Assembly (NCBI RefSeq): GCF_001640025.1 | Contig: NC_031673.1 | Span: forward strand, 1,054,001-1,118,000 | Source of the DNA: Sugiyamaella lignohabitans | Lineage: Eukaryota; Ascomycota; Dipodascomycetes; Dipodascales; Trichomonascaceae | Length of the DNA: 64,000 nucleotides | Direction: 5' to 3' | In this document: one piece after another, positions 4,173 to 54,425 of the stretch | Layout of the letters: each line of letters opens with the position of its first letter | Position numbering within the stretch: the stretch's first letter is position 1 | Program-made: the position numbers and the translations under genes | The notes under the pieces: model-generated | The model's database searches: none | What the model was told of the DNA's origin: nothing | The model's input: the letters and a program-made list of their open reading frames with translations, nothing else

Positions 4173-4229
4173 TGCCTCCGGCGGCTGGGGCTCCGCCCCA
4201 GACCCTGGTAGCTCCTGCTTCGCAGGAGT
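4173..4229 (+). repeat. GCE copy, B tail, 3' of coiled-coil gene
   Basis: Has the head GCCTCCGGCGGC, the stem CTGGGGC with loop TCC and GCCCCAG, then tail CTCCTGC-TTC-GCAGGAG. Lies 67 bp after the stop codon in sense orientation. Confidence 0.95.
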
Positions 4230-4316
4230 TTGTATTCTATATTAGAATATACTATTATCGTCACCAACATGGTATATTCTTAGCATTACAACCGTAAACT
4301 GGGGGGGTCCTCAGGG

Positions 4317-4358
4317 GATGAGCCGCACCCAGGGGTAAGCCGCACGGTGAAAAATCAC
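4317..4358 (+). promoter_or_regulatory. Candidate promoter motif upstream of GCN20
   Basis: Two AGCCGCAC copies (in GATGAGCCGCAC and GGTAAGCCGCAC) are followed by the palindrome GTGAAAAATCAC, about 65-105 bp before the GCN20 ATG. GGTAAGCCGCAC recurs near 52171 upstream of CCT8, also followed by GTGAAAA. A shared factor site is inferred; the factor is not identified. Confidence 0.35.
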
Positions 4359-4422
4359 TGTATTCCGATCAAGTGGTGAAGCAGAAAATCAGCCTGGCAC
4401 TCAGTCAACAAAGCCAATCAAA

Positions 4423-6684: not shown

Positions 6685-6721
6685 TTATATACTCTCTGCT
6701 ATCTCATCCCCGTGTCCAGTT

Positions 6722-6781
6722 GCCTCCGGCGGCTGGGGCGCTGCCCCAGACCCCGTTGCTCCTCTCACTTCGTTCGAGTCG
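6722..6781 (+). repeat. GCE copy, A tail, between GCN20 and DIS3 ends
   Basis: Sense to GCN20, 38 bp after its stop. The hairpin loop is GCT. The tail is diverged (CTCACTTCGTTCGAGTC). It is the only copy in this convergent gap, so DIS3 lacks a sense copy of its own. Confidence 0.93.
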
Positions 6782-6859
6782 GCCGTCGCCGTCCCGACAT
6801 GTATGGTGCTGAAAAAAAATGGGAATAATGATAATAAAGAGATAAATAATACATTATAA

Positions 6860-10136: not shown

Positions 10137-11479
10137 ATGGTAAGTAAGCCAGTTCCAGACCGTAATTCCGCACCCCAACCCCTTCCTGAACCCCACAACC
10201 CCTGCCAAGGAAACCAGCGGAATCTCCTGCGAAGCAGGAGCCACGGGGTCTGGGGCGGAGCCCCAGCCGCCGGAGGCATTGCGGCCTCCTGTGACTGCCT
10301 CCGGCGGCTGGGGCTCTGCCCCAGACCCCGTGGCTCCTCTCGCTGCGCTCGAGTCGGGCGTGGGGGAGCCAGTTGTGGCGAGAATCGTGCTAACAGAGGG
10401 TCAGAGTAGACCGTATATCGCTGCTAATAGCGTCGCTGAGGGTAAGAAATGTTTGGAAATGAGAGTGGGTGGTAAATTGAGACTGGTTAGAGAGGTGGAT
10501 TACAGCTAACTGTGTGATAGCACACAAATCAGACGTATTTGCAGTCGAAACCACCGAGCATTACACGATTACTGCGTCGGGAGACGGCCAGATACTGCTG
10601 TGGAATAATAAGGATCCAGAGCCCAAAAGTGCTGTTAAATTGAACTCCCCGTCTTCTGGTACACATCATTTGAGCACTGATAGGTCGGGTCGATGGCTGG
10701 TAGCAGTGTCGTTTGATGGAAAGGCCACTTTATACGATTTAGACAACCTGGCAGGTGAGAACGGTGGTTCTGGAAGATTGCTGTTTGAAGATGTATGGGC
10801 TGTGGCTATAGAACCCAATGCCCGTCATGTGGTGGCTTCACAGATCACAGGTGATATTGCTGTATGGGATATTTCTGCAATTACTGAGGAAACTCCTGAC
10901 CAAACGACGGAATCAGCAGCCTCGCAACCACAGATCAAACGCATTCAAAAGTTTTCTGGTAATGGGGGAGTTCTTGGTCTAAGTGTTGACTTTGCATCGA
11001 ATGAAGAGCATGTGGCAGCAGGGTTTGAAAGTGGTGCCATTCATGTCTATAACTATAAAACCGGCCGTCTGGAGTATTCTCTGACCGGCCATTCGAATCC
11101 GATTAGGACCGTCAAATTCTCACCAGCAGCTACTTTATTGGCCATTGGCGGCGATTCGAAGCTCATTTCTTTATATAGCATGACATCAGGCGAGCATATC
11201 ACGAACCTAACTGGTAGCGATGGATGGGTGTTTGGACTCGACTGGAATGAGACCGGCGAGTTCTTACTCAGTGCGTCTTATGACGGCCGGTCTCGAGTCT
11301 GGTGGCTCGAAAGCAGGCAATGCGTGGCTGCTCAAAACGACTCCAGCCAGCCCTTATTCGGATGCAAATGGCTCAAAAAAGGCTGGGGTGTCGGCGTCAT
11401 CGGCGGTATCAACCAAGGTTTTGCCACGGTCGGCGTCGACAAAACTCTGCGCTGGTACCGCGAAGCTGCTGGCAACTAA
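10137..11479 (+). CDS. SKI8: Ski8, WD40 subunit of the Ski complex (two exons)
   Basis: Exons are 10137-10143 (ATG GTA A) and 10521-11479, giving 321 residues. The second exon encodes WD40 repeats from AHKSDVFAV and SGDGQILLW through FGLDWNETGEFLLSASYDG to the C terminus. The Ski8 family usually begins with a block like AHKSDIF followed by SGDG, which fixes the frame. The only donor giving the right phase is GTAAGC at 10144; it overlaps the better-looking GTAAGT at 10140. The branch site GCTAAC lies 10 bases before the acceptor TAG at 10520. By family knowledge Ski8 bridges the Ski2-Ski3 helicase feeding mRNA to the cytoplasmic exosome, and also acts in meiotic recombination. A sense GCE follows 42 bp after the stop. 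Confidence 0.88.
10144..10520 (+). other. SKI8 intron filled by two GCE copies
   Basis: 377 bp, donor GTAAGC (overlapping tandem donor GTAAGT four bases upstream), branch GCTAAC at 10505-10510, acceptor ATAG. Two GCE copies lie inside in antisense-then-sense order, the reverse of the order seen in the other introns. Confidence 0.8.
10223..10357. repeat. GCE inverted pair in SKI8 intron
   Basis: Minus copy 10223-10277 (B tail) and plus copy 10297-10357 (A tail), heads facing each other across about 19 bp. Confidence 0.95.
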
Positions 11480-11520
11480 TAAATCCCGCTATTTATTGAA
11501 TAACCTCTCTCGTGGGACCT

Positions 11521-11580
11521 GCCTCCGGCGGCTGGGGCTCTGCCCCAGACCCCGTAGCTCCTCTCGCTCCGCTCGAGTCG
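11521..11580 (+). repeat. GCE copy, A tail, 3' of SKI8
   Basis: Sense to SKI8, 42 bp after its stop codon. Middle loop TCT; the variable tail base is C (CGCTCCGCTCG). Confidence 0.95.
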
Positions 11581-11914
11581 TTTCCGTCGACGGTCCCAGC
11601 TCTCTCTTTCTTCACAAATATAGTATGGACGCCTCTGTTCTACAAATGAACCGAAACGCGTTATCTTCGAATCCTTCATAGGATCTCACCAATAATTCAT
11701 ACAAAATAAACCTTAGAAATTACTTTAATGCTGTAATTAATAGATATTCCTTCTTCGCCAAACGTAGTATTGAATGAGTAGCTATTGTACCACCGCCTGC
11801 CTGATATTGTATGGCTTGGTCATCATTAGTTCTATTCTCGTTATATTCGGAAAATGCAGAATTGTCACAGGAATTTCGGGGCTTTGGCAGCCTACAAGTT
11901 GCTTCAAAATTCCG
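11581..11914. other. Intergenic spacer between SKI8 and PRP6 ends
   Basis: About 330 bp of unremarkable AT-leaning sequence between GCE copies. No gene seen. Confidence 0.5.
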
Positions 11915-12044
11915 GTCTCCTGCTAAGCAGGAGGCACGGGGTCAGGGGCAGAGCCCGAGCCGCCGGAGACAAGTCCCACAAGCCGGTTTTCTCCTGCGAA
12001 GCAGGAGCCACGGGGTCTGGGGCGGAGCCCCAGCCGCCGGAGGC
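11915..12044 (-). repeat. Two minus-strand GCE copies 3' of PRP6
   Basis: The intact copy 11990-12044 (B tail) is sense to PRP6, 31 bp after its stop. A second, diverged copy at 11915-11970 has a TAA loop in the tail hairpin and mutated head bases. Same-orientation neighbours suggest duplication or repeated insertion. Confidence 0.92.
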
Positions 12045-12074
12045 AGGGAGGAAGAGCAGAAATAAATAAATAAA

Positions 12075-15092: not shown

Positions 15093-15276
15093 GCCTCCGG
15101 CGGCTGGGGCTGCGCCCCAGACCCCGCGGCTCCTCTCGCTTCGCTCGAGTCGGGCGAGGGGGGGGGGGGGGATCCCTTTTGAACTCCGAGAACGAGCACT
15201 GGACTCCCCCCACGCCCGACTCGAGCGAAGCGAGAGGAGCCACGGGGTCTGGGGCGCAGCCCCAGCCGCCGGAGGC
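15093..15276. repeat. GCE inverted pair between PRP6 start and ISWI end
   Basis: Plus copy 15093-15152 and minus copy 15216-15276, tails facing, both A type. The minus copy is sense to the ISWI gene, 29 bp after its stop. A 13-base G run near 15158 lies in the loop. Confidence 0.95.
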
Positions 15277-15304
15277 ACGCCCTGATACAAAAAAAGTTGG
15301 TTTA

Positions 15305-18300: not shown

Positions 18301-19029
18301 CCTCCTTCAAAATCTTCTTAAACTCGGGATCCCGCTTGGCCCGCAAATCAATAAAGTGTCGAAACAGATCTGTCAGCCCCAGCAAATACTTGAACCGTTT
18401 AATCGAGTCCTCTCTCTACACCCTCTGTTAGTCCACTGTCCTGTGGCCCGGGTCTGCCTCCGGCGGCTGGGGCTGCGCCCCAGACCCCCCGGCTCCTCTC
18501 GCTACGCTCGAGTCGGGGCTCGGGGTATTGGAACCGCACGGGGAAACAACCAGAACTCACTCCCCCTACGCCCGACTCGAGCGCAGCGAGAGGAGCCGGG
18601 GGGTCTGGGGCGCAGCCCCAGCCGCCGGAGGCCGTCCGACACCCACTTACTTTGATGTTCTCAACCTTGTGGTGCTTGTCGAGGATGTACCGACGTTTTC
18701 TGTCCTCGAAATCAATGGCGACAGGCGTGGCAATGGCCGACGACGACGCTGACTGGGGGGTCTGTTAGTTCTGGTTCTGGGGTCCGTAGAGGGGGTGACG
18801 CTGCCTCCGGCGGCTGGGGCTTCGCCCCAGACCCCATGGCTCCTGCTTCGCAGGAGATTGCTTGGTCTGTAGACGCTCGACTCGAGCGAAGCGAGAGGAG
18901 CCACGGGGTCTGGGGCAGAGCCCCAGCCGCCGGAGGCACGGTGTCCCGGACCTAATCTGCCTCCTCGTCGCGTGTAGCGAGTGAACTTACGTCGCCGTTG
19001 CTGCCTGAGTCGTCGATTGCAGGCGCCAT
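15305..19029 (-). CDS. ISWI-family chromatin remodelling ATPase (three exons)
   Basis: Exons on the minus strand are 19029-18991, 18752-18651 and 18415-15305, giving 1083 residues, close to yeast Isw1/Isw2. Exon 2 encodes the acid/basic segment [20 protein letters not shown], and exon 3 continues in phase with [18 protein letters not shown], the start of the ISWI ATPase module. Motifs include DEMGLGKT (Lys about 183), [20 protein letters not shown] and [21 protein letters not shown]. The C-terminal third has HAND-SANT-SLIDE character ([21 protein letters not shown]). By family knowledge it slides and spaces nucleosomes. I cannot separate ISW1 from ISW2 by eye. Both introns contain GCE pairs, and a sense GCE lies 29 bp after the stop. 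Confidence 0.93.
18416..18650 (-). other. ISWI intron 2
   Basis: 235 bp, donor GTAAGT, branch ACTAAC, acceptor GTGTAG 11 bases later; joins exons in phase 0. Contains a sense then antisense GCE pair (18632-18572, 18517-18456). Confidence 0.88.
18456..18632. repeat. GCE inverted pair in ISWI intron 2
   Basis: Plus copy 18456-18517 and minus copy 18572-18632, both A tail, separated by about 54 bp. In the transcript the sense copy comes first. Confidence 0.95.
18753..18990 (-). other. ISWI intron 1
   Basis: 238 bp after a 39-base first exon encoding 13 residues. Donor GTAAGT, branch ACTAAC, acceptor CCCCCCAG 11 bases later, phase 0. Contains a GCE pair. Confidence 0.85.
18803..18937. repeat. 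GCE inverted pair in ISWI intron 1
   Basis: Plus copy 18803-18856 (B tail) and minus copy 18878-18937 (A tail), loop of only about 21 bp. Sense copy first in the transcript. The two tails differ, so the pair did not arise by simple local inversion. Confidence 0.95.
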
Positions 19030-19791
19030 GGTGGAGATCGTGTTTTTGCGAGAAAATTGCCGGCGATGTTGGGGGTTTTTGGGGGGTGGAGATGCGGTTC
19101 GCTCGTGAGGTGAAGTGATTCGTGTGTTTACTTTTTGCAGCACCAGCAACGAAATCAGCCGGTGGTGGTGATCTGATGGTCAGTGTCGGTGAAAGTATGG
19201 CGTGGTCTCGGGGCGTTGTGGCGGCAAAGTCCGAAATAAACAGCTGGTACCGTGAAAATCAACCTAAAAAATCGTCGCTGTTCAAACGAAAAATCCGGGC
19301 CAAGATATTCACTTTATATATCCTTTTATATCCAGTGTGTCTAGCATTTTAATATGCAGGCACTATTGACTAGCGTGCGGCTGGCCCGTTTTAGCTTTTG
19401 ATATGCTTTTTTCTCCCAAGTCCACGCGTTTGCAGCGACCGACCGACCGTCAGCAGCAGCACCTGCCGCTGCCGCTGCTGCGAATGCGACAAATGCGGCA
19501 AATCCTGTTACCCCCTGAGTTCCTCTCGGATTGCGGGGAACTTTTCTCTTTTTAATTATCTCGTTACCCGGTTAATATTTCTCTTAAATACTAACCGGTA
19601 TCGCCACTCCTTTTCCAGCGCTCATTTCTACCCAATTGTCCACTTTTTTTCCCCCACAAACTCTCCTTGCTCCCAAGCAACACCACCTCCCGGACCCTGA
19701 AACTTATTATCTTTCAACGCGCGGCAAGCATGCCGATCTCATGTACAAGGGTACGCGTACGGCTGTGCGGGACCGGTACTCGTGAGGGACT

Positions 19792-19846
19792 GCCTCCGGC
19801 GGCTGGGGCTCCGCCCCAGACCCTGGTTGCTCCTGCTTCGCAGGAG
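19792..19846 (+). repeat. Orphan GCE copy, B tail
   Basis: Intact copy with loops TCC and TTC. No recognised gene ends just upstream on the plus strand. Confidence 0.94.
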
Positions 19847-19949
19847 AGGGTGGGGGCTGTGAGATAGCTGGGGGGTGGTAGAGGTGAGTGAGGTTGAGGG
19901 GCTGAGGGGTTAGTTAGTTGGTGGAGAGCGTTTCAGTTGTAGGGGATTA

Positions 19950-20020: not shown

Positions 20021-20259
20021 TCTCCAGTATGGCACAAAAACCGTCTGGAGTATCTGTTATCACTCTGAGAGAATTTTAATAGTTTCTTTGGGGCTGATTA
20101 AGCTGGTAATCGCATTTATTTTCATCTTTAAACTGCTTTTCGTGGGAACACTGTGGTTTCTGTGTGGTCACGTGACACATATGTGATGAGAGCTGGACTC
20201 AGAATGAGCAATCCTGGAGGATTCCCCTATACTCCTCGGAACTGGGTAAACGGGGGTTT

Positions 20260-20319
20260 CGACTCGAGCGGAGCGAGAGGAGCAGCGGGGTCTGGGGCGG
20301 AGCCCCAGCCACCGGAGGC
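20260..20319 (-). repeat. Orphan GCE copy, A tail
   Basis: Minus orientation, one head mutation (CCACCGGAGGC). It directly abuts the second-family repeat starting at 20322. Confidence 0.93.
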
Positions 20320-20321
20320 AC

Positions 20322-20400
20322 ACCCCGTTTGTGGAGAATTCCACATCAGATCGTAGTAACGGGGTCGCTTGATATAGGCAGTTTTGGGGGGGTCGAGTTT
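20322..20400 (+). repeat. Second repeat family copy
   Basis: Shares about 80 bp with 27442-27520: CCCCGTTTG, then ATCGTA, then AACGGGGTCGCTTGATATAG, then GGGGGGTCGAGTTTT. Confidence 0.65.
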
Positions 20401-20616
20401 TGGTTTGAAAGTTGTCTGGAGGCCTTTGGAGCATGTTCAATTGTGTTTTGTGTACTTTTAGAGTTCTGAAGTGCTTTTGGTTTGTTTCTAGCGAGCTATT
20501 ATGGGTGAGATATGGCTGAGCCTGGATTGACGTCACGTGAGTCTCTTTTTTAGTGGGTGTGGGTGAGCTCTCAGGGCCCGGTGAGTTTGTCGAAAAAACT
20601 AATTTGGCATGGGATT

Positions 20617-20677
20617 CCGACTCAAGCGGAGCGGGAGGAGCAGCGGGGTCTGGGGCGGAGCCCCAGCCGCCGGAGGC
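20617..20677 (-). repeat. Orphan GCE copy, A tail
   Basis: Minus orientation with a modified tail (GACTCAAGCGGAGCGGGAG). No gene recognised on the minus strand just upstream of it. Confidence 0.92.
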
Positions 20678-20904
20678 AGGTCCCTTTAGCCAGTGTAGAC
20701 CGTTGTTCGTGCGATACAGTGAGCCTTCTCCCCAGTTTACGGGTAGAATTTTCGGCTGATGGCTGGTAGGCTAGTTTTGCTATTTATTTTGTTTAATGAT
20801 ATGGGTTAAGTGAGAGGGAGAAAGGAGGTTATTTTATAGTTAGAGGAGAAGTTAGGAATGTGAGATGTATATTCAGGTTAGTGGTTCGAGGTTCTTGATT
20901 CACC

Positions 20905-26464: not shown

Positions 26465-26487
26465 ATGCCCCACCCCCTGGTAATTAG

Positions 26488-27295: not shown

Positions 27296-27356
27296 GCCTC
27301 CGGCGGCTGGGGCTCCGCCCCAGACCCCGCTGCTCCTCTCGCTCCGCTCGAGTCGG
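27296..27356 (+). repeat. Orphan GCE copy, A tail
   Basis: Intact plus copy with joint ACCCCGCTG; no recognised gene ends upstream. Confidence 0.94.
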
Positions 27357-32714: not shown

Positions 32715-32760
32715 TGCAGGGCTCAAGTACGAGCCCGGGAATTTCAAATCACAAGTGGCA

Positions 32761-32831
32761 GGCCACTTGGTGTAGTGGTAACATAGCAGACTTCCAATCT
32801 GCTGCCACGGGTTCGATTCCCGTAGTGGTCA
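32761..32831 (+). tRNA. tRNA-Gly, anticodon UCC
   Basis: Folds by eye: acceptor GGCCACT with AGTGGTC, anticodon stem GCAGA with TCTGC around loop CTTCCAA (anticodon TCC), T arm ACGGG-TTCGATT-CCCGT, discriminator A. A- and B-box sequences are present (TGGTGTAGTGG; GGTTCGATTCC) and a T run for Pol III termination follows immediately. There is no intron. It reads GGA codons. Confidence 0.95.
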
Positions 32832-36065: not shown

Positions 36066-36114
36066 TCTTTTTCTGTTTATGTTTTAATGTAAATACTTTT
36101 TCACCCTCTCTGTT

Positions 36115-36324
36115 GCCTCCGGCGGCTGGGGCTCCGCCCCAGACCCCGTTGCTCCTGCTTCGCAGGAGACTCTGCTGCATGGACCCTGCATTTCTCCGGC
36201 GGCGGGGGCTGCCCCACACCCCGTGGCTTCTGCTCCGCAAGAGGGCCTTGGCACCCCCCACAACCGACTCGAGCGAAGCGAGAGGAGCCGGGGGGTCTGG
36301 GGCGCACCCCCAGCCGCCGGAGGC
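36115..36324. repeat. GCE cluster 3' of MFS gene
   Basis: Plus copy 36115-36168 (B tail), diverged plus copy about 36192-36243 (shortened stem, tail GCTTCTGCTCCGCAAGAG), minus copy 36264-36324 (A tail). Confidence 0.92.
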
Positions 36325-36684
36325 AATGCAGGGCCCTGGCGTCAGGGTCCAGGGCCCTGCGGCGTGCATGTGCTGATAAGCGAGAGGTGCATGAGCAATT
36401 ACCCGGACTGGGAGAGGGCGCGTTCGCGGGTGGTGGAGGAGGTGGGTGAAAGAGAGAGGTGCTTCGCGAAGATTGGGACCGGACCACAAACCAGTAAGCG
36501 AGATTCGGCATCCACATCGGCTTTCGAGTCCAAAAATCCCAAAAAAAAAAAACAAGAGTCGGAAAAAGCGACGCTGGGCTGTCACTGCGCTTGAATTACG
36601 AGACGGCTCACAGCCGACCGACGCGAACAAAAACACCGGTGCGCCAGAAATTCTACTGTCGAGCTCTCGATCAGTCTGCCTGCC

Positions 36685-39512
36685 ATGAGCGCCAAGGGTA
36701 GGTAAATCCGGCCCGTGAGGGGTCTACAGATTTGGGATGGGGACCAGGGGCTCCTGGTTGGAATTCGGGTCCTGTGTTAAGTGAGGTTTGGTTGGTTTTT
36801 GGGGTGGGGAGGGGGGGGGGGAGAGTCTGCCTCCGGCGGCTGGGGCTCTGCCCCAGACCCCGTGGCTCCTCTCGCTTCGCTCGAGTCGGTTTCGCTGGAT
36901 GTTAGCAGATTCGGGGGATGGAGACGGTTAAGGGAAGATGGGTTTAGTGCGGTTTTCGAGTTTGTTTTCGTGTGTTTTGAACTGATTCTTCTGGGGTTTC
37001 CTGTTCGAATGGTGAACGTGAAGATCCAGCGATAACAGGTGAATTAGCCCTTGTTTCGGCCATTGAACGCTTGGAAATGGACCAGGAGCTTGATCAGACA
37101 CGGGATAAGTGGCCATTTGGTTTTTTTTGTGGGAAAATTGGATACTAACAGTCGGTGTAGGAGTTAAACCGGACACGAACCAGACCCAGTGCAGGAACAT
37201 CCTGATCCACGGGTACTGTAAATTTGCCGACAAAGGCTGTGCTTTCCGGCACGACAGCGGCCCCTCGTCGGCCCTCTCAACGGCCGCACCAGGTTCTTCA
37301 GTTTCTGTTGCTGCTGGAGCCCCTGCTGCTGGACCAGGAACCTCGCCAACCCGGCCCATGGACGCATCGTTGAAAAAGAAGCAACTGAACGCGGACTCGC
37401 CCTCATTCACTCCCTCATTCGTCAATCCGCTAGCGGGCACGGCCGTCGGCTCGCCCATTTCGAAATCTCACGCGGCCCCATCACCAAAAGTCGATGTTGT
37501 CCCGTTCTACCCCAAAAGTAAGTCTTCGACCCTGGGGGTCGGGGTGTGCCTCCGGCGGCTGGGGCTGCGCCCCAGACCCCGTTGACGCCCGACTCGAGCG
37601 GAGCGAGAGGAGCCGGGGGGTCTGGGGCGCAGCCCCAGCCGCCGGAGGCACCACCCTTTTTGAAAGGACCCCCCTCGAAAGAAGGAGCTAACTCGGACCA
37701 GATCTCGCGAATGGAGGTGCTAAGTATAATCCCGAGACGAGCAGTTTTAACCCCGAGTCTGTGTTTAGTCCGCGTATGGGGAATGGCCAGGCCGCGCCGT
37801 CTCCAGGTCCTGGAGGTGGTGGTGCGTTTGTAGTTCCTGCTCATGCTCCACAGCAACAACAACAGCAACAACAACAACAACAACAGCAACAGCAGCAGGT
37901 TCAGCATCAGCAACAGCAGCAACAACAACAGCAGGTTCATGGAGGACCAGTTCCACCTCATCATTTTCAGTTACAACAGACGGCAGACGAGTTTAATGGG
38001 CTCATGATCGATTCGCACCAACCACCGCCACCGCCGCCGCCCCAATCACATCACCATCATCAGACAATGGCCCCTCCTCCTCTTCATTTCCAGACTCCAA
38101 TGACAGGAAATCCCGATATGCTTTTCCAACCGCACTCGGCATTCCCGCTTCAGTACCATTTATACGCGCCAGTGCCCATGCGACGTGCCCGTGAGACCCT
38201 GTCGCCTCACGAACGACGCATTGAGGACTTCTTTATTCGAAATGATTTACGAGAAGAATTACAGAAGAAAAACGAGGCACTGCTTCAGAAACTGCCGAAC
38301 TCGGCTCTGCCCGAGTTTGTTCATATTTATCACTCGCTGGTGCCTCTGGACACGAATATCGACAAGAACGACCGATTGTTTGGCTACCCGACTTGGGCGT
38401 ATAAAGCGACGTCAAATCGTGACGGACGAATCTACTGTCTACGACGAGTCGAGGGTTTCAGGTTGACTAACGAGCATGCTATTAAATTGGTGCAAAAGTG
38501 GAGAAATATCGATTCACCGAATATCGTTAAACTTTACGAAGCATTCACGACCCGTGCATTTGGCGATAATTCTCTAGTGTTTGTGTACGATTACTATCCA
38601 CTAGCAACGACGCTGTTCTCGACGTATTTCGGGCCAATGGTCAAGTTCCAGCATCCTCTGGAACAAACAAGACCTATTGACGAGGGTCTGATATGGGCGT
38701 ATATCATTGAACTGGTAAATGCACTTAAAGCTATACATGAAGCCGGGCTGGCAGCACGAATTGTTGATCCAACCCGGATTCTGGTGGTGAAAAAGGGACG
38801 AATCCGGTTGAACTGCTGTGGAATTTTTGATATTCTTCAGTTTGAAAGCAGTAATGGAGTCATTAGTAAAGAGGAGATTGCCGCGTTACAGCAGGAAGAC
38901 TTTATTAATATCGGACGATTGATTTTGATTCTTGCGTGTAAATCGACACTGGGGGCTAGCCAGCCACTGGCCAAGTCGTTTGAGACCATATCCAAGCAAT
39001 ATTCTGCTGATCTGTTACAATTCACACAACATTTGCTGTCGTCGGATGCTGTTGAGCAGCCCGATGCTGCTGTTCCGACGCCGATTACCGTTGGTTCGTT
39101 AGTGACGATGCTGGCTGATAAGACGTTAGAGTACCTGAGCAGCTCATTGTATGCGAACGACGACCTTGAATCGCAGTTGTCACAGGAGCTAGAAAATGGC
39201 CGGCTCGTAAGATTACTGGCCAAATTCGGGTTTATTAATGAACGACCCGAGTATGAACACGATCCGAACTGGTCCGAGTCTGGCGACCGGTACCTGATTA
39301 AACTGTTCCGTGACTATGTGTTCCACCAGGTCGACGAAATGGGTAAACCCATTGTCGACATGGGCCATGTGCTGGCATGTCTCAACAAACTGGACGCCGG
39401 CGTCGACGAGCCCATCCTGCTGGTGTCCCGCGATGAACAGTCGTGTCTCCTCGTCTCCTACAAAGAGCTCAAGTCCTGCATCTCCTCGGCCTTCCGCGAC
39501 CTCTCTAAATAG
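36685..39512 (+). CDS. PAN3: Pan3, poly(A) nuclease regulatory subunit (three exons)
   Basis: Exons 36685-36697, 37161-37517 and 37702-39512 join in frame to 726 residues (S. cerevisiae Pan3: 679). Exon 2 encodes the N-terminal CCCH zinc finger (CRNILIHGYC, then KFADKGC, AFRH). Across the second junction it reads VPFYPK then NLANGGAKYNPETSSFNP, matching the Pan3 PAM2-like area. Exon 3 begins with polyQ (about 37852-37935), then the pseudokinase (YCLRRVEGFRLTNEHAI; ATP loop and catalytic residues degenerate as usual) and the C-terminal knob (FRDYVFHQVDEMGKPIVDM). By family knowledge it binds poly(A) and Pab1 and recruits Pan2 for deadenylation. Both introns carry GCE copies. A sense GCE follows 43 bp after the stop. 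Confidence 0.92.
36698..37160 (+). other. PAN3 intron 1
   Basis: 463 bp after a 13-base exon (MSAK plus one base). Donor GTAGGT, overlapped by GTAAAT four bases on; branch ACTAAC, acceptor GTGTAG 11 bases later. Only the first donor keeps frame with the zinc-finger exon. One sense GCE inside. Confidence 0.75.
36829..36889 (+). repeat. GCE copy, A tail, in PAN3 intron 1
   Basis: Intact sense copy, just after a G-rich run (about 36804-36822). No antisense partner in this intron. Confidence 0.95.
37518..37701 (+). other. PAN3 intron 2
   Basis: 184 bp, donor GTAAGT, branch GCTAAC, acceptor GGACCAG 9 bases later, phase 1. Contains a truncated sense and a full antisense GCE. Confidence 0.88.
37548..37649. 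repeat. GCE near-palindrome in PAN3 intron 2
   Basis: The plus copy 37548-37582 has lost its tail and runs almost directly into the minus copy 37589-37649 (A tail). Pair and loop appear collapsed by deletion. Confidence 0.94.
37852..37935 (+). repeat. CAA/CAG repeat encoding polyQ in PAN3
   Basis: Mixed CAA and CAG triplets give two long Gln runs split by VQH, in the flexible linker before the pseudokinase. Length polymorphism is likely. Confidence 0.9.
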
Positions 39513-39554
39513 TCTCTCTCATAATAGAACCAAAAACAGTTCGTTTCTGGGTGT

Positions 39555-39879
39555 GCCTCCGGCGGCTGGGGCTCTGCCCCAGACCCCGTGGCTCCTCTCG
39601 CTTCGCTCGAGTCGGGTTTTGGGGGCATCGGAATATGCCTCCGGCGGCTGGGGCTGCGCCCCAGACCCCCTGGCTCCTCTCGCTTCGCTCGAGTCGGGTT
39701 TGGGGGAGTCAGAACTGGCGATTCCAACCCGAAACTGGCCCCCCGACACCCGAGCGAAGCGAGCCGGGGGGTCTGGGGCACAGCCCAGCCGCCGGAGGCA
39801 CACCCCGACCCCCCAAACCCGACTCGAGCGCAGCGAGAGGAGCCACGGGGTCTGGGGCAGAGCCCCAGCCGCCGGAGGC
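39555..39879. repeat. Four-copy GCE palindrome between PAN3 and TOM6
   Basis: Plus copies 39555-39616 and 39637-39698, then minus copies 39744-39799 (short tail, one base lost in the stem) and 39819-39879. Each convergent gene thus has two sense copies after its end, the first at 43 bp (PAN3) and 64 bp (TOM6). Confidence 0.95.
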
Positions 39880-39942
39880 AGGTCGCTGATACAAGAACCT
39901 GGTGTCATTATTTACAGCTTTTTAAGTGGTTGTAGTGTGTAG

Positions 39943-40142
39943 TTACAGTCTGCGAGGTTAGTTCGGGTCCAGGAGATTGGAGAGGACGGGGGAGGAGGGA
40001 CTTACTGAGGAGCGAGGAAGTCCATGAACTGGGACTGGATGAACGCCACGCCGGCGGCGAAGAGGGCGACATTCCAGACAACGGGGGCAGCATCGCCGGT
40101 GAGGGCTTCTTGGACGGTTTCGATGATAGATTTGTCGGCCAT
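39943..40142 (-). CDS. TOM6: Tom6, small subunit of the mitochondrial TOM complex
   Basis: Exons on the minus strand are 40142-40006 and 39949-39943, giving 47 residues. The C terminus reads FAAGVAFIQSQFMDFLAPQL, nearly identical to the conserved Tom6 tail (VAFIQSPLMDMLAPQL in S. cerevisiae, from memory). The last Gln codon is split, and the final Leu and stop lie in the second exon of only 7 coding bases. The single membrane helix is about residues 20-38. The N-terminal cytosolic part is short and acidic. Without splicing the protein would end at Gln, one residue short. By family knowledge it stabilises the Tom40 pore assembly. A sense GCE follows 64 bp after the stop. Confidence 0.9.
39950..40005 (-). 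other. TOM6 intron
   Basis: 56 bp, donor GTAAGT, branch ACTAAC, acceptor CTCGCAG 7 bases later. One of two recognised introns without a GCE, and the shortest. Confidence 0.85.
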
Positions 40143-40364
40143 TGTATCTTTTTGGTGTGATTTCGGTGGTTTTGTGGGTGTTTTCTGTAGTGGTCAAGTG
40201 ATCCGCCAGGTTCGTGAACATGAAAAATGTCCTCTCTTGCTCCAGTCCGTTAGCCGCATATATGCATGTGCACTGTCCACGGTCTGGAAGAGGGAGAGGG
40301 GGAAAGTAAGGGTTTATATAGCTAATAAATAATATTAAAGGAGGAGATAGCGGGATGGCGGAAT

Positions 40365-40418
40365 GCCTCCGGCGGCTGGGGCTCCGCCCCAGACCCCGTG
40401 GCTCCTGCTTCGCAGGAG
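40365..40418 (+). repeat. GCE copy, B tail
   Basis: Intact plus copy 27 bp beyond the 3' end of the small minus-strand gene but in antisense orientation to it; orphan by the sense rule. Confidence 0.93.
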
Positions 40419-40445
40419 AGACGTCGGGGTATCCGGGTGTGGGTG

Positions 40446-40751: not shown

Positions 40752-40753
40752 TG

Positions 40754-41456: not shown

Positions 41457-41580
41457 GCCTCCGGCTGCTGGGGCTCTGCCCCAGACCCCGTGGCTCCTGC
41501 TTCGCAGGAGATTTCTCTGACCTCGCCCGACGCCCGACTCAAGCGAAGCGAGAGGAGCCACGGGGTGTGGGAGCGTGTGG
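41457..41580. repeat. GCE copy plus truncated inverted copy
   Basis: Plus copy 41457-41510 (B tail, head mutated to GGCTGC). Minus partner 41534-41580 keeps the tail but is lost beyond GAGCCACGGGG. Confidence 0.9.
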
Positions 41581-41901
41581 ATGGGGGTGACAGGGAGAGG
41601 ATCCCGGTTATAGTGGTGTCGATCTTTTCATTTACCCCCATGAAAACTGCCTTCCTGAAGTGCTCAAGACTTGATATTAGGCTCTTTGTAAACCCTTATT
41701 TCTTCTAATAGGTTTAGTGTTATCACGTTTGCCATTACACACTGTCTGTGCCGGTGAGAAAGCACCAAAAACAGGCAAGCCCCGTTAAAAGCATAACCAG
41801 TATGACTCGAGCCCCCATCCCTCACCCCCATCTCCACCCACGGAACCACTCCGTTTCCACCGCCAACTCCCCTCCCCGAGCTACAGCACCTTCCAACGCA
41901 A

Positions 41902-41961
41902 CGACTCGAGCGCAGCGAGAGGAGCCGCGGGGTCTGGGGCGCAGCCCCAGCCGCCGGAGGC
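41902..41961 (-). repeat. Orphan GCE copy, A tail
   Basis: Intact minus copy with no recognised minus-strand gene just upstream. Confidence 0.93.
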
Positions 41962-42047
41962 AGCAGAACCCCAATCTGCACCAGCTAATTAACCCGCGTC
42001 GCCCCGGCAACGGTGGGGCTCAACCTCTTCCCACCTCCCCACTCCTT

Positions 42048-42174
42048 CGAGCGAAGCGAGCCAAGGGGTCTGGGGCAAAGCCCCAGCCGCCGGAGGCATC
42101 CCCCAGGACCGTGAGTTTGTGCCTCCGGCGTCTGGGGCTCCGCCCCAGACCCCGTGGCTCGCTTCGCTCGAGTT
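42048..42174. repeat. GCE pair with short C tails, heads facing
   Basis: Minus copy 42048-42097 and plus copy 42121-42174, both with the short tail CTCGCTTCGCTCG, in head-to-head order. Confidence 0.92.
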
Positions 42175-42298
42175 TGGGGAATGAGGGAGGTGCACGGTCG
42201 ATCTGGCATGTAGGACCCTAACCTGGGAGATGCAGGGCTGTTTACTGAGTGAGAGTGGTGGTGGTTGTGGGGGTAGGGGCGGGGGCAGAGGGGAGGAC

Positions 42299-42850: not shown

Positions 42851-43091
42851 CTTCTCGACTTGGTTTCACTGTTTTCCACTACAGCACTTGTTGACAATTT
42901 GTTGAAGTCGATTGTTTTCGTGCAATTATTCAATTAGCATCATTATTTCTTCAAATTACAGATATATCAGGCTCTTATTCTTCTCGTTTGTCTCGACTCG
43001 GTTTCATCTGTTGACAATTTGTTCAAGTCGATTGTTTTCGTGAAATTATTTAATTAGCATCATCATTTCTTGAAATTACTTGATATTTCAG
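42851..43091 (+). repeat. Imperfect tandem duplication in leader
   Basis: Two units of about 100-118 bp (42851-42968 and 42991-43091) share TTGACAATTTGTT, AAGTCGATTGTTTTCGTG, AATTAGCATCAT, ATTTCTT and end in TCAG. Located 90-330 bp before the wall-protein ATG. Confidence 0.8.
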
Positions 43092-43177: not shown

Positions 43178-43350
43178 ATGGTTCATATCAAATCACTCCC
43201 AGTTGTCGCCCTATTGGCTACCTCGGTTTTGGCTAATCCTGGCGGAGCTGCTCTGGCAGAAGGTGCTTTAATGGTTCGTCAAGATCCTGCTCCCGCTCCA
43301 AGTGCCGCTGCTGGTGCCCCAGCTCCTGCTCCAAGTGCCCCTGCTGCTGG

Positions 43351-43405
<55 letters not shown>

Positions 43406-44068
43406 AGTGCCCCAGCTGCTGCTCCTGCTCCTAGTGCTCCTGCTGCTGGAGCTCCTGCTCCTTCTCCAAGTGCTGCTGGTGCCCCTGCTGGTGCTCCTGC
43501 TCCTTCCCCATCAACTCCAGGAGGTGCTGCTGCCCCTGCTGGAGCTCCTGCTTCAGCTCCTTCTCCCTCAGCAGCCGCAGGTGCACCTGCTGCTCCTGCT
43601 GGTCAGCCTGCTCCAGTTAATAACCCAGCAGGGCCTGCTGGTCCACAAGCCCCAGCTTCTGCTGCTCCTGCTGCTGGAGCTCCTGCTGCTGGTGCCCCAG
43701 CTGCTCCTGCTGTCCCATCACCCTCTACTCCTGGCACTCCAGCTGCTGCTGGTGCTCCTGCTGCTGGTGCTCCTGCTGCTGGCGCTCCTTCTGCGGGTGC
43801 TTCTGATGCTGGTACTCCAACAGACGCTGCTCCTTCAGGATCAGCTCCCGAAGGAAATCCATTCCTCCCCACAGACGGTCAATACTCACTCTTTGTACCT
43901 ACTGGCACCGTCACATACTCCTCAACGCCCTCTGTGGTTTATAACAAATCCCCTGGTAACTCAAGTGCGAGCGGGTCGACTGCCAAAGGCGCCGGATCCA
44001 AAGTCACAGCCATTTACGGTGGACTCTTCATGGCTTCGCTCTCCACCACCCTTGCCATTCTCCTCTAA
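43178..44068 (+). CDS. Ala/Pro-rich secreted GPI-anchored wall protein
   Basis: 296 residues. Residues 1-19 form a signal peptide (VVALLATSVLA, cut near LANP). Residues ~35-220 are almost only Ala, Pro, Gly and Ser in APAPSAPAAGAP-type repeats. A globular-like segment follows (FLPTDGQYSLFVPTGTVTYS, about 230-249), then a small-residue stretch and a hydrophobic C-terminal tail (YGGLFMASLSTTLAILL) typical of GPI attachment. It likely sits in the cell wall. No enzyme domain is seen. The repeats probably vary in number between strains. No sense GCE follows; the copy at 44112 faces the converging gene. Confidence 0.82.
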
Positions 44069-44111: not shown

Positions 44112-44165
44112 CGCTCGCGAAGCGAGCACAACGGGGTCTGGGGCAGCGCCCCAGCCGCCGGAGGC
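44112..44165 (-). repeat. GCE copy, short C tail, 3' of HAO gene
   Basis: Minus copy, sense to the oxidase gene, head 65 bp after its stop. Middle loop GCT in sense reading, short tail. Confidence 0.93.
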
Positions 44166-44229
44166 AACACCCCCCCTCCACCACGATAATACCCCTGTTT
44201 AGTTTACTGTTTGTTATTTGATTTTTGGT

Positions 44230-45721: not shown

Positions 45722-45771
45722 GCCTCCGGCGGCTGGGGCTCCGCCCCAGACCCCGTAGCTCGCTTCGCTCG
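45722..45771 (+). repeat. Orphan GCE copy, short C tail
   Basis: Plus copy with tail CTCGCTTCGCTCG; about 300 bp upstream of the oxidase start, antisense to it. Confidence 0.93.
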
Positions 45772-46298
45772 TTGCAGGGACCGTGTACGGGCCGGTGGAT
45801 ATTTGGGAAATATCGGATGGTAGGGCGTCGGTTTTCTGTCGTTACTTTGCTACAAATATCACTGATCGGCGGTCATGCAGGTCGTATGACAGCTGTGAAT
45901 CAAATGCAGGGTCTTGCAAGTCCGGATCTCGCTACAATGCTAACCCGGTACTTCAAATGCCGCCATACGCCCATTCTTCCCAGTCTTATCTTGCTTTAGG
46001 CACCCCCATGTCTGGTCTGTACAATACGTTTAATGACTATAATCATTTTGCATAGACAGCACATAGCTTGAAGCTAACCAGCGATTTATTATTGCGTCAA
46101 AATTTCAGAATCAAAAACTAGGATCTCAACCAAAAATGGGCTTGCACTGACAAAAATCCTCTGGTATAATTATGTCATGGCCAGTTTACTGCACGGGCTG
46201 AAGCTCAGACATCCAACACCGCGTGCTAGTTATACTATTGTTAGCGCTGTAGGTTTAAGCTGCTTCCCCAGCCTACCCTTCTGATCAGTTCATCCACA

Positions 46299-46596: not shown

Positions 46597-46661
46597 TCTG
46601 ACCCTCAACCACTGCGAACGATTAGTCATCATTTTTACCGCCTGGTGGGAGCCATACGCAC

Positions 46662-46720
46662 GACTCGAGCGTAGCGAGGGGAGCAGCGGGGTCTGGGGCG
46701 GAGCCCCAGCCGCCGGAGGC
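46662..46720 (-). repeat. Orphan GCE copy, A tail
   Basis: Minus copy. Its head is 25 bp after a minus-strand stop at 46745 that ends a 63-codon frame (LPLRSLSGAYNKMFFQDN) of unknown status. Confidence 0.93.
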
Positions 46721-47851
46721 ATTTCCGTATGCCCGTGAAATTTATTAGATGATCGTCAGGGGTAAGTGGCTAAGCTCATGCAATGTAATGTTATCTTGGA
46801 AGAACATCTTATTGTATGCTCCTGAAAGGGAGCGCAGAGGCAGGAAATACTGAATACTAGATATAAGTGTGGTGCGGGGGCTCAGCCATGACTTTGACCC
46901 CATAGGCTGAAAATTTAAGTTAAAATCCGTAAACAAGATGGGAACTCAGTAACAGGCAGGCAGACCACTTTATTAAAGCTCTATCTATGATGATGGAGGA
47001 ATTGGCTGACGAGGTGCACATTCATCATCATAATATGTCAATTATACACTTTAAGAAGCAGTCCACTGGGATTTCTATCCTCCATACTACGAAGATATTT
47101 TTAAATACCATGGTCACTGTCATCCGACATGTCGAACTCTTGACTTTCTATGATAGTGTACTACTTGTCTGATCTGCCAGTGGTTTCTGATCCAAGTTAA
47201 GCAGCGACTGGGTTTCTCAATCAACATATTTCCACTATATTGGGGAGCAGCTTAACAATAAATAAGTGGTTTTATCGATTAAACCTAGCTGCTACTTCGC
47301 TTCTGGCTATTTCTCCCATATCATACCTTCTGCCGGAGATTAGCAATAATGTAATCAAATAGATCATTCACTACGATAAATTTGTTCATTCTCCGGAAGA
47401 AAGAAAATAACTAGTAGGGATTAAACAATAAATTGCTATGATAATAACTGGAGCTCAGAACATATGAAGGGTAAATTCTCATGCTGGAGTAACGTAAGTA
47501 CGTCAAAATCAGGTGCATGGTGTAGATAGGCAGAGAAGCTTGTTTCGCTGTAAAGAACTGATTGAAGTCGTGGTTGGTAGATTTTCAATGGAAAGAGTAT
47601 TATCCCTCATTATAGGGCCAAAAAATAAAGTAATAAATAACTGGTGAATTATATGAGTAGAGGTTATAAAATAGTTTTACTGGTGGTGGACTGGACGGAC
47701 GTGCATATTCCAGCCTTGCATGAATGAAATTAAGACATAAATCAATTCCATATCAGACCGACCTCTTCTCATGTTGTGAAAGAAAACTGCTGTGTCGTTC
47801 GATTGTCCATTACTACTGGTTTGATTGAGCACGCGTGTGTTAATTCAAAAT

Positions 47852-48523: not shown

Positions 48524-48571
48524 CTGTGTATATTTATTGACCTTATTTATTTTTCTGGGGGGACGGGACTT

Positions 48572-48797
48572 GCCTCCGGCGGCTGGGGCTCCGCCCCAGA
48601 CCCTGGTTGCTCCTGCTTCGCAGGAGTTTTTTCTGGCGGGACCGTCGTCGAACCCACTCGAGAGAAGCGAGAGGAAGAGCCATGGTCTGGAACGGAGCCC
48701 CAGCCGTCGGAGACAGGTGGTGGTATCATCGACGACCGACTCGAGCGAAGCGAGACGAGCAACCAGGGTCTGGGGCGGAGCCCCAGCCGCCGGAGGC
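48572..48797. repeat. Three GCE copies between TAF11 and Sac gene ends
   Basis: Plus copy 48572-48626 (B tail), a decayed minus copy about 48650-48715, and intact minus copy 48736-48797 (A tail), whose head is 45 bp after the Sac-phosphatase stop. Each convergent gene has its own sense copy. Confidence 0.94.
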
Positions 48798-48841
48798 AGA
48801 CCCCGTCAGCAGGTGTGTGTAGTAAGAGTGATATAAAGAGA

Positions 48842-51998: not shown

Positions 51999-52159
51999 GC
52001 CTCCGGCCCGGCTGGGGCTCCGCCCCCCAGACCCCGCTGCTCCTCTCGCTGCGCTCGAGTCGGCTCCGTCTACCGACCCGCCAACACCCCCCGGTCCCCG
52101 CAATCTCCTGCTTCGCAGGAGCAACCAGGGTCTGGGGCGGAGCCCCAGCCGCCGGAGGC
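51999..52159. repeat. GCE inverted pair with inverted tail loop
   Basis: Plus copy 51999-52063 has extra bases in the head and stem (GGCCCGGCTGGGG, CCGCCCCCCAG). Minus copy 52104-52159 has a B tail whose loop reads TTC instead of GAA on this strand, i.e. the hairpin loop is flipped. Confidence 0.93.
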
Positions 52160-52170
52160 AGGGCTCAGGG

Positions 52171-52291: not shown

Positions 52292-52555
52292 GTAAGTTTC
52301 TAGGCACAATTGGGTTTCTGGAACCCGGTAAGAGGTTCGCCGGGACGGGCTGGCTGGGTTATAGGGTTTAGAGAGGGGGTGAGGGTGTGCCTCCGGCGGC
52401 TGGGGCTCCGCCCCAGACCCTGGTTGCTCCTCTCGCTTCGCTCGAGTCGTTTGCGTCGGCGGTCGTAGCAATCTCCTGCGAAGCAGGAGCTACGGGGTCT
52501 GGGGCAGAGCCCCAGCCGCCGGAGGCAGTGTGGGACTCAGAACTAACAGGATCAG
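52292..52555 (+). other. Apparent 5'UTR intron of CCT8
   Basis: 264 bp with donor GTAAGT at 52292, branch ACTAAC at 52542-52547, acceptor GGATCAG 8 bases later, ending 6 bases before the CCT8 ATG. Contains a sense then antisense GCE pair, exactly as the coding introns do. Confidence 0.7.
52389..52526. repeat. GCE inverted pair in CCT8 5'UTR intron
   Basis: Plus copy 52389-52449 (A tail) and minus copy 52472-52526 (B tail), loop about 22 bp. Confidence 0.95.
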
Positions 52556-52561
52556 TAAACA

Positions 52562-54235
52562 ATGTCGAATCTGAAGATGCCCAGCGCCCCTAATAGCGGG
52601 CTGTTTAAACAGGGCTATCAGACATATCAGGCAGAAGATGGTGCTGTGAATAGGAATATTGCTGCTGTTAGAGAGATTTCTTCTATGGTTAGAACGTCGG
52701 TGGGTCCTTGTGGACGTAATAAGATTGTTGTGAACCATTTGCAAAAGATCTTTTTGACCAGTGACGCAGCCACCATTTTGCGGGAACTGGAGATTGTTCA
52801 TCCAGCAGCCAAGCTCGTGGTTATGGCCAGTCAGCAACAAGAAACTGAAATGGGTGATGCGTCGAATTTAGTATTGATTCTCGCTGGTGAACTGCTGTCA
52901 TTGGCAGAGGGTCTGCTCAGATTGGGTTTAAACCCATCAGAGATCTCTCAGGGCTATGAAATGGCTAAGAATTTCGCCGTGGATACTCTGGAAAAGGGTA
53001 CTTTATTCAAGAACCTCGCTAATAACCAGATCACAGACTTGACTGACGTCGACCAATTGCGTAAAGCTGTATCTACCGCCATTGGATCGAAACAATACGG
53101 AAGTGAACAGTTTTTGTCGGGATTAGTGGCCGAGGCTGTTTCGTATGTCATGCCCAAGAACCCTCGTTATTTCAATGTTGATAACGTGCGAGTGGTGAAA
53201 ATCATGGGTTCCAGTTTAGAAGCCAGTGCTGTTGTTCGTGGTATGGTATTTGCTCGTGAACCTGAAGGAAGTATTAAAAAAGTCGGTACCAAGTCTAAGG
53301 TGGGTGTTTTCTCATGTCCAATTGATATTTCGACTACTGAGACTAAGGGTACAGTGCTTCTTCATAATGCCAAAGAGATGCTGGAGTTTTCCAAGGGAGA
53401 AGAGGCTCAATTGGAATCGATTGTTAAAGAACTTGCTGACTCGGGACTACGAGTGGTTATTGCCGGAGCCGGTGTCGGCGAGTTGGCTCTTCATTATTTG
53501 AACAGATATGGCATTCTTGTTTTCAAAGTCGGCAGTAAATTCGATCTTCGTAGACTGTGTAGAGTGGTAGGAGCCACTCCTTTGCCACGACTGGGTGCTC
53601 CTATGCCCGAGGAGATGGGTGTCATTGATGTTGTTGAGACTATTGAGATTGGTGGTGACCGAGTGACGGTGTTCCGTCAAGACCATGAACAAACTCGTAC
53701 TTCGACTATTGTTGTTCGTGGAGCTACTCAGAACTCACTCGACGATATCGAGCGTGCTATTGACGATGGTGTTAATGTTGTCAAGGCTCTTACTAAAGAT
53801 ACCCATTTGCTTCCTGGAGCAGGAGCCACTGAAATCGCCCTTGCTACTCAAATTGTCGCTTTTGGAGAACGTACACCCGGACTTCTCCAACACGCTATTA
53901 AGAAATACGGCGAAGCTTTCGAGGTGATTCCTCGTACACTTGCCGAGAACGCTGGTCTCGACGCTACCGACCTTGTTTCCAAACTCTACGCAGCACATGC
54001 CGGTACCGAGTCGACCATCGGAGTCGATGTCGATGACAACGATGGCACCGGACTGCTGGATGCCGCACAAAACGGCATTTTTGACCTCCTGGCCGCCAAA
54101 AAGTCTGCCATCCAACTGGCCACCGATGCCGCTACTACCGTGCTCTCGGTCGACCAAATCATTATGGCCAAACGAGCCGGCGGCCCCGTCATGCCCAAAC
54201 AACAGTCCACTGGTAACTGGGACCAGGACGACTAA
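52562..54235 (+). CDS. CCT8: CCT8, theta subunit of the TRiC/CCT chaperonin
   Basis: 557 residues (S. cerevisiae Cct8: 568). The N terminus reads NSGLFKQGYQTYQ, a Cct8 hallmark. Group II chaperonin motifs include SVGPCGRNKIVVN, TSDAATILRELEIVHPAAKL, GDASNLVLILAGELL (phosphate-binding), the apical domain with GTVLLHNAKEMLEFSKGEE, and the C-terminal GAGATEIALATQI and NAGLDATDLVSKL. By family knowledge it is one of eight ring subunits folding actin and tubulin. A sense GCE follows 33 bp after the stop. Confidence 0.97.
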   Translation: MSNLKMPSAPNSGLFKQGYQTYQAEDGAVNRNIAAVREISSMVRTSVGPCGRNKIVVNHLQKIFLTSDAATILRELEIVHPAAKLVVMASQQQETEMGDASNLVLILAGELLSLAEGLLRLGLNPSEISQGYEMAKNFAVDTLEKGTLFKNLANNQITDLTDVDQLRKAVSTAIGSKQYGSEQFLSGLVAEAVSYVMPKNPRYFNVDNVRVVKIMGSSLEASAVVRGMVFAREPEGSIKKVGTKSKVGVFSCPIDISTTETKGTVLLHNAKEMLEFSKGEEAQLESIVKELADSGLRVVIAGAGVGELALHYLNRYGILVFKVGSKFDLRRLCRVVGATPLPRLGAPMPEEMGVIDVVETIEIGGDRVTVFRQDHEQTRTSTIVVRGATQNSLDDIERAIDDGVNVVKALTKDTHLLPGAGATEIALATQIVAFGERTPGLLQHAIKKYGEAFEVIPRTLAENAGLDATDLVSKLYAAHAGTESTIGVDVDDNDGTGLLDAAQNGIFDLLAAKKSAIQLATDAATTVLSVDQIIMAKRAGGPVMPKQQSTGNWDQDD

Positions 54236-54267
54236 ATATTAATGTATAGATTTTGCACTGTCACGCT

Positions 54268-54425
54268 GCCTCCGGCGGCTGGGGCTCCGCCCCAAACCCC
54301 GTGGCTCCTCTCGCTTCGCTCGAGTCGGGCGTGGGGGTCCGGGCTGTTTCGGGGAATACAGTGATGCTGGGACCACACGTAACGACTCGAGCGCAATGAG
54401 AGGGCAGCAGGGTCTGGGGCGGAGT
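54268..54425. repeat. GCE copy and truncated inverted partner
   Basis: Plus copy 54268-54328 (A tail) 33 bp after the CCT8 stop. Minus partner 54382-54425 keeps tail and half the hairpin, head lost. Confidence 0.92.

Follow-up and report, generated by a model that had tools for sequence, protein, structure and literature searches.

Hairpin-forming repeats have been described in bacteria and in mitochondria. REPINs, i.e. doublets of repetitive extragenic palindromic (REP) sequences forming hairpins, are presented in PMC3116915 as inverted doublets with conserved ends, a variable spacer, compensatory changes, singlets and an extragenic location; the REP tag is GTAG or CGTC (PMC3733652). Palindromic GC clusters and hairpin elements of mitochondria are, according to PMC4478555 and PMC2800124, short GC-rich units with conserved stems, variable loops and merged forms that lie between genes. 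Here we report on a repeat, termed GCE, in a 64,000-nucleotide stretch (the window) of the yeast Sugiyamaella lignohabitans (NC_031673.1, positions 1,054,001 to 1,118,000). The window sits on contig 4 of a 15.93-Mb genome in four contigs, among ordinary yeast genes. In a protein search the top match was a metagenome protein (76%), and the nearest named relatives were Geotrichum, Trichomonascus and Blastobotrys (61-63%), with no Sugiyamaella among the 120 rows listed, in keeping with a yeast of that group. It holds 48 GCE copies with up to 7 mismatches, and the genome holds 6490 at up to 3 mismatches (3215 forward, 3275 reverse; reversed-pattern control, 0). In our assessment, GCE is probably a short interspersed inverted-repeat element with hairpin ends, which is most likely mobile and builds up around the ends of transcripts.

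GCE resembles REPINs and bacterial interspersed mosaic elements (BIMEs) in its inverted conserved ends, variable spacer, long hairpin, compensatory changes, singlets and extragenic copies. It differs from them in lying in a yeast nuclear genome and in an oriented zone past stop codons, in lacking the GTAG or CGTC tag at its conserved ends, and in that no Y1 transposase of the REP-associated tyrosine transposase (RAYT) type was found. GCE works like a REPIN, with two inverted ends around a spacer that fold as a hairpin, yet it falls outside that class on the tag and the Y1 transposase. It is thus very improbable that GCE is a eukaryotic REPIN, a REP-doublet system moved by a RAYT-type enzyme, even with the doublet, conserved ends, variable spacer, compensation, singlets and extragenic sites matching those in PMC3116915. 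A search whose control was positive in 5 of 14 genomes found no match to the Y1 transposase domain (Y1_Tnp) in the yeast, and among bacteria of the class of genome G001 (see below) the domain occurred in 4 of 13 genomes rich in the GCE head versus 25 of 47 others, i.e. without positive association. Membership in the RAYT/REPIN system was rejected on these two grounds.

With mitochondrial GC clusters GCE shares conserved stems, variable loops, merged forms and intergenic sites; it is longer, built tail to tail, and has no short flanking direct repeats of the kind that yeast mitochondrial clusters carry (AG, ACT). Its copies occur on contigs of 2.3-5.9 Mb amid nuclear genes, which excludes a mitochondrial location. 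Like miniature inverted-repeat transposable elements (MITEs), GCE is short (about 140 bp), has terminal inverted repeats and no apparent coding capacity, and reaches a very high copy number; it differs by the absence of a target-site duplication, by compensated internal hairpins and by its common half-elements, with Y1 the only partner transposase searched for. Literature searches by exact sequence and by topic returned no paper describing GCE by title or start of abstract among the matches listed, with subscription journals mostly outside their scope.

Anatomy of the GCE unit

GCE is one half of an inverted pair of about 140 bp, the halves lying tail to tail with their heads outward. Each half starts with GCCTCCGGCGGC, followed by a hairpin, GACCC, a second hairpin and a variable spacer, after which the full unit repeats all parts in reverse; the conserved end is TGCCTCCGGCGG. 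The full unit begins with TG and ends with CA, and its inverted ends measure about 43 bp. We found 46 tail-to-tail pairs 90-260 nt apart, 25 of which span 129-138 nt between the outer core bases (136-143 bp from TG to CA) and are here called canonical; some of the 46 and some of the 25 come from stretches L001-L008, which were chosen via GCE matches and therefore excluded from the placement statistics. Head-to-head pairs within 260 nt numbered only 9. Genome-wide, 1192 full units have both 16-bp ends exact with 95-125 nt between them. The full unit at 26325-26465 folds into a single long hairpin (-119.6 kcal/mol).

The core is perfect at all 28 non-loop sites in 5396 of the 6490 copies, while loops, linker and spacer vary. 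The second hairpin changes in sequence yet stays paired, with stems of at least 6 pairs in 59 of 135 copies versus about 1% of shuffles, and the first occurs in the compensated variants TGGGGC/GCCCCA, TGGGC/GCCCA and CGGG/CCCG. The spacer of the full unit retains traces of one motif, and the unit is mostly built from two halves that differ in hairpin type, one of either type. Two half-elements, 11520-11606 and 27295-27383, extend into the shared spacer, and a partly decayed mate is retained by 7 of the 137 copies in the placement set described below. Such spacer-bearing halves and decayed mates match what is expected of remnants of full units.

Close head-to-head neighbours recur, their core starts just 21-26 nt apart (10276/10298 and 42096/42122 in the window, 1837/1862 in stretch L016, 6854/6875 in L018), as if new units insert beside an existing head. 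The 10-15 nt outside the yeast heads are G-rich, and bacterial copies are A- or A/G-rich there; the flank may belong to the element as a degenerate extension, or it may reflect a preference for certain targets.

Placement and orientation at stop codons

Placement was analysed in a 254-kb set consisting of the window and 19 evenly spaced 10-kb stretches from the first 1.9 Mb of contig 1; one extra 10-kb stretch each was taken from contig 2, contig 3 and elsewhere on contig 4. Distances run from the last base of the stop codon to the first C of CCTCC. Gene calls were based on open reading frames (ORFs), so that missed intron-bearing or short genes would raise the count of stop-facing heads.

A sense head within 130 nt past the stop was present at 13 of 17 window genes and at 12 of 45 genes in the contig-1 stretches (13 of 47 in another gene set, the sets varying with ORF length cut-offs and edge rules). 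In the extra stretches, where longer ORFs alone were counted and the cut-off was 115 nt, such a head was present at 6 of 9 genes: all 3 in the contig-2 stretch, 3 of 4 in the one from contig 4, and neither of the 2 from contig 3, where one sense head lies at 143 nt. The bias seen in the window recurs on contigs 1 and 2 and in the other part of contig 4, and the contig-3 stretch does not follow it. A first-pass annotation of the window had listed 13 genes with sense copies out of 18; the count here is 13 of 17. Its distances were reproduced within 1-2 nt for 12 of them (re-measured as 69, 39, 43, 32, 30, 68, 51, 44, 66, 50, 46 and 34 nt), and for TOM6 the value is 124 nt instead of 64. The fixed spacing that it proposed gives way to a zone: 29 of 31 distances fall at 28-83 nt, the remaining two being 7 and 124 nt.

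When all 100 element units were moved randomly inside their own intergenic regions 5000 times, single heads facing a stop at 20-90 nt were strongly over-represented (16 observed, 3.15 expected; p = 0.0002), as were, to a lesser degree, paired heads (8 observed, 3.83 expected; p = 0.003). No significant excess appeared for tails facing a stop (2 versus 3.1 expected) or for heads facing a start (single, 5 versus 2.7; pairs, 2 versus 1.4). As the full unit is symmetric with its heads outward, it faces any neighbour automatically, and orientation can be tested in half-elements only. Near stops, 17 half or partly mated elements were head-facing and none was tail-only. The earlier statement that the head always faces the stop therefore carries weight for half-elements and is trivial for inverted pairs. 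Two window stops have an antisense copy only, and both of these copies lie in short convergent gaps with their heads toward the neighbour's stop.

The 254 kb contain 137 heads, of which 30 point at a recognised stop no more than 130 nt away and 79 have no stop or start nearby. The density was 0.97 per kb between tandem genes, 1.25 between divergent ones and 1.76 between convergent ones. These values argue for a general intergenic element with an extra concentration behind stops. The copies located in the window are:

4173-4234, plus strand: half-element in sense, head 69 nt past the stop of ORF 1821-4106
6721-6783, plus strand: half-element behind GCN20 (stop 6684, head 39 nt), tail toward the DIS3 stop at 6860
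10219-10278, minus strand: half-element, head-to-head with 10296-10357
10296-10357, plus strand: half-element, head-to-head with 10219-10278
11520-11606, plus strand: half-element plus spacer behind the SKI8 (WD40) exon (stop 11479, head 43 nt)
11900-11970, minus strand: degenerate tandem half-element, the second behind PRP6
11983-12045, minus strand: half-element behind PRP6 (stop 12075, head 32 nt)
15093-15277, unstranded: inverted pair, right head toward the ISWI stop at 15305 (30 nt), left head toward the PRP6 start
18455-18632, unstranded: inverted pair in a divergent intergenic region
18802-18938, unstranded: canonical full element, 137 bp
19791-19853, plus strand: half-element
20245-20320, minus strand: half-element
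20614-20678, minus strand: half-element
26325-26465, unstranded: canonical full element, 141 bp, the long hairpin given above
27295-27383, plus strand: half-element plus spacer
27818-27879, minus strand: half-element
28736-28874, unstranded: canonical full element
32559-32714, unstranded: full element behind MYO5 (stop 32493, head 68 nt), with a head-only fragment closer to the stop
36114-36325, unstranded: inverted pair behind the MFS gene (stop 36065, head 51 nt)
36828-36900, plus strand: half-element
37547-37650, unstranded: shortened inverted pair upstream of PAN3
39554-39620, plus strand: element half behind PAN3 (stop 39512, head 44 nt)
39636-39800, unstranded: inverted pair in the PAN3-TOM6 gap
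39817-39880, minus strand: element half, head toward the TOM6 stop at 40002 (124 nt)
40364-40422, plus strand: half-element, not behind a genuine gene end (TOM6 is on the minus strand)
41457-41571, unstranded: element with truncated mate
41888-41962, minus strand: half-element
42044-42098, minus strand: half-element, head-to-head with 42120-42177
42120-42177, plus strand: half-element, head-to-head with 42044-42098
44112-44166, minus strand: half-element with a variant second hairpin behind HAO (stop 44230, head 66 nt), tail toward the stop of ORF 43178-44068
45722-45788, plus strand: half-element
46658-46721, minus strand: half-element
48571-48715, unstranded: inverted pair behind TAF11 (stop 48523, head 50 nt), right half degenerate
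48721-48798, minus strand: element half behind the Sac phosphatase gene (stop 48842, head 46 nt)
51999-52160, unstranded: inverted pair upstream of CCT8
52388-52527, unstranded: canonical full element upstream of CCT8
54267-54428, unstranded: element behind CCT8 (stop 54235, head 34 nt), distal half without head
59380-59440, plus strand: degenerate half-element with 6 core mismatches

ORF 40024-40332 was rejected as a gene, as it is antisense to TOM6 (Pfam Tom6, minus strand, 40002-40142).

The tight sense peak and the 17:0 orientation would also suit a functional 3'-end element, whose sense-strand hairpins or GC-rich DNA would pause RNA polymerase II or block exonucleases, with cleavage shortly upstream and close genes kept separate. 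In line with such a role, the sequence leading from the stop to the head is rich in T and C and poor in G, and some convergent neighbours own a head each (SKI8/PRP6 and a pair in L019). TATATA, TATGTA or TACATA occurred within 160 nt in 3 of 27 genes with GCE versus 12 of 33 others (Fisher p = 0.036, uncorrected), whereas the other five of the six poly(A)-type motifs were not depleted when equal lengths were compared; these counts are a weak indication that GCE replaces or shortens the usual 3' region. On the other hand, 40 of 71 sampled stops have no sense head nearby, 4 of the 19 contig-1 stretches are empty, and GCEs are as dense between divergent genes, where there is no 3' end, as between tandem ones, which makes a required 3'-end signal unlikely. 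Changes in the first stem towards G.T (54) and A.C (47) were about equally frequent genome-wide, so that selection acting solely on the sense RNA is not apparent, and RNA-level strand selection on this stem was dismissed. Stronger conservation near stops was likewise discarded, since mean core mismatches are similar near and far (0.79 and 0.98, in an earlier gene set that counted ORF 40024-40332 as a gene). An intrinsic-terminator T tract is absent after the canonical yeast units (T fraction 0.04-0.28 at positions 1-12). We consider a functional 3'-end element doubtful. Among the proposals in the first-pass annotation, a dedicated 3'-end role keeps the head-facing halves and the rarer TATATA-type motifs on its side and is opposed by the similar divergent and tandem densities, and insertion or retention tied to transcript ends fits better.

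Thousands of loci in the yeast can serve as natural experiments that ask if a strong hairpin immediately past the stop shapes transcript ends. The function of REP-like gene-end repeats, an old question, thereby becomes testable in a simple eukaryote.

Probable mobility and proposed fate of halves

The preferred reading, a mobile element accumulating in the transcript-end zone, could work as follows. The full tail-to-tail unit would be what spreads, its hairpin ends being recognised by some machinery, and single halves would be its remnants. New copies may preferentially land or survive in the transcript-end zone, where coding sequence and promoters would be spared and a stable hairpin would mark the end of the 3' untranslated region (UTR). 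The gene-facing half would then be retained, while the distal half would be free to decay. In the earlier gene set mentioned above, halves carried more core mismatches than full units both far from genes (1.25 versus 0.81) and near stops (1.13 versus 0.40), with the reverse near starts (0.50, n = 4, versus 0.93, n = 14).

Several points weigh against this reading. The 25 canonical units show no target-site duplication: flanks of 2-8 bp were compared with the element ends shifted by -4 to +2, and the lowest p in 42 comparisons was 0.010. The yeast genome lacks a Y1_Tnp match, other transposase families not having been searched. Movement is therefore deduced from copy number and anatomy, and no polymorphic or empty site was seen. 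Half-elements near starts are head-facing as well (4:0), so part of the head-ward bias may be geometry; the stop codon could limit deletions on the gene-ward side. Simple neutral decay does not explain how intact the core is relative to the spacer. Finally, the stretches sampled amount to 284 kb of 15.9 Mb, chiefly from contigs 1 and 4.

Terminal inverted repeats and high copy number are also what an ordinary class II MITE would display, and with random insertion the 3'-end pattern would result from selection against hits in genes and promoters. The scarcity of copies in long ORFs (3 of 137 heads) agrees with this, but the 25 canonical units without target-site duplication do not, and neither does the uneven placement within intergenic regions, with an excess 20-90 nt from stops and none that is significant at starts. 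We hold an ordinary MITE to be unlikely.

Two copies inside predicted frames were noted: a whole unit (133 nt between core ends) at 2620-2757 of L025, within a 538-aa frame, and a GCE at 9065 of L017, within a long ORF. The distribution along contig 1 is patchy. L009, L010, L012 and L013 (50-60, 150-160, 350-360 and 450-460 kb) are free of GCE, and other stretches carry up to 12 copies.

Possible bacterial relatives and other features of the window

Scanning 84,980 prokaryote species, with one genome per species, we found the 28 fixed core bases exactly in four records: Solidesulfovibrio aerotolerans, two other Desulfovibrio-type metagenome-assembled genomes (MAGs) and one Acetobacteraceae MAG. 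In these genomes (G001-G004) the 11-base head is present in 332, 156, 450 and 164 copies, against 20, 16, 62 and 42 for the reversed control. A 17-base head occurs 343 times in the Acetobacteraceae genome (control, 0), once in 1 of 95 other genomes of its class and as single copies in 2 of 149 other genomes of its family. In the class of Solidesulfovibrio, 13 of 60 genomes are rich in the 11-base head (at least 20 copies and 3 times the control).

The Desulfovibrio-group and Acetobacteraceae repeats share with GCE the head CCTCCGGCGGC, a hairpin, GACC (or GAAT), tail-to-tail pairs and heads behind stops. They differ in a first hairpin that is variable (Desulfovibrio group) or has a variable loop (MAG), in a second hairpin that is not obvious by eye, and in an A- or A/G-rich outer flank. 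Among 41 of the 343 Acetobacteraceae copies listed, 20 form 10 tail-to-tail pairs of 79-123 bp; a pair is present in 10 of 12 stretches taken, 8 of those stretches having been chosen as pairs. In stretches cut out around such bacterial heads, a sense frame of at least 80 codons ends within 50 nt before the head in 11 of 16 and 17 of 22 cases (random positions, 0.19 and 0.23), compared with 2 of 16 and 8 of 22 on the tail side. Pfam matched 16 of 40 bacterial frames, most of them chosen for ending near a head, and 15 of these 16 end 2-31 nt before a sense head. Unlike yeast copies, those of Acetobacteraceae have A-rich leaders mirrored as T-rich trailers, and to judge from these sequences they look like two-way intrinsic terminators.

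No Rfam family at gathering score covers the bacterial gene-end repeat. With E up to 1, Rfam on L031-L034 returned a c-di-GMP riboswitch, which is unrelated, and microRNA hairpins that matched the L033 element weakly, with E = 0.0039 at best and scores well short of the gathering thresholds throughout. The viral contigs and phages searched gave no match, and plasmid searches gave short matches in 2 and 3 records. One of the plasmids (NZ_CP134051.1:2423-2458) matches the bacterial element over 36 nt at 92%; it comes from Brevibacillus brevis, a host remote from the others.

The resemblance could be convergence of GC-rich gene-end hairpins rather than common origin. The first hairpins of Desulfovibrio-type copies are so variable that one variant could match the yeast by chance, the flanks outside the heads are A- or A/G-rich in bacteria but G-rich in the yeast, and the 17-mer is restricted to one of 150 family genomes sampled, besides two single copies. 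Conversely, neither the 11-base head nor the GA that follows the hairpin varies among 19 aligned yeast and bacterial halves, all picked for the head; tail-to-tail pairs of similar length occur in both; and the head exceeds its reversed control about 4- to 17-fold in all of the four genomes, which were picked for one 28-base match. Convergence remains quite conceivable, and common origin is favoured over it rather than demonstrated. More tentative is the wider proposal that one family, with the head GCCTCCGGCGGC, hairpin, GACC and tail-to-tail arrangement, crossed between bacteria and the yeast nucleus, where it would have reached about 6,500 half-units, and that in both domains it would occupy, and help to define, gene 3' ends. 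If the family does span bacteria and a eukaryotic nucleus, a copier of hairpin-ended DNA may act in both, apparently without the known Y1 enzymes.

Some other features of the window were recorded. An Rfam scan at gathering scores yielded a tRNA only; the tRNA-Gly gene has a GCE head pointing at its 5' end from 48 nt away (32713-32761). An 80-nt sequence occurs twice, at 20322-20401 and 27443-27522 (81% alike), with self-complementary ACCCCGTT..AACGGGGT and a final TTTT; it has no Rfam match, and a genome search with the second copy matches only itself and 55 nt of the first. Finally, an AT-rich direct duplication of 71 nt (42889-42959 and 43009-43079; 93% identity, 120 nt apart) stands upstream of the repeat-rich ORF 43178-44068.

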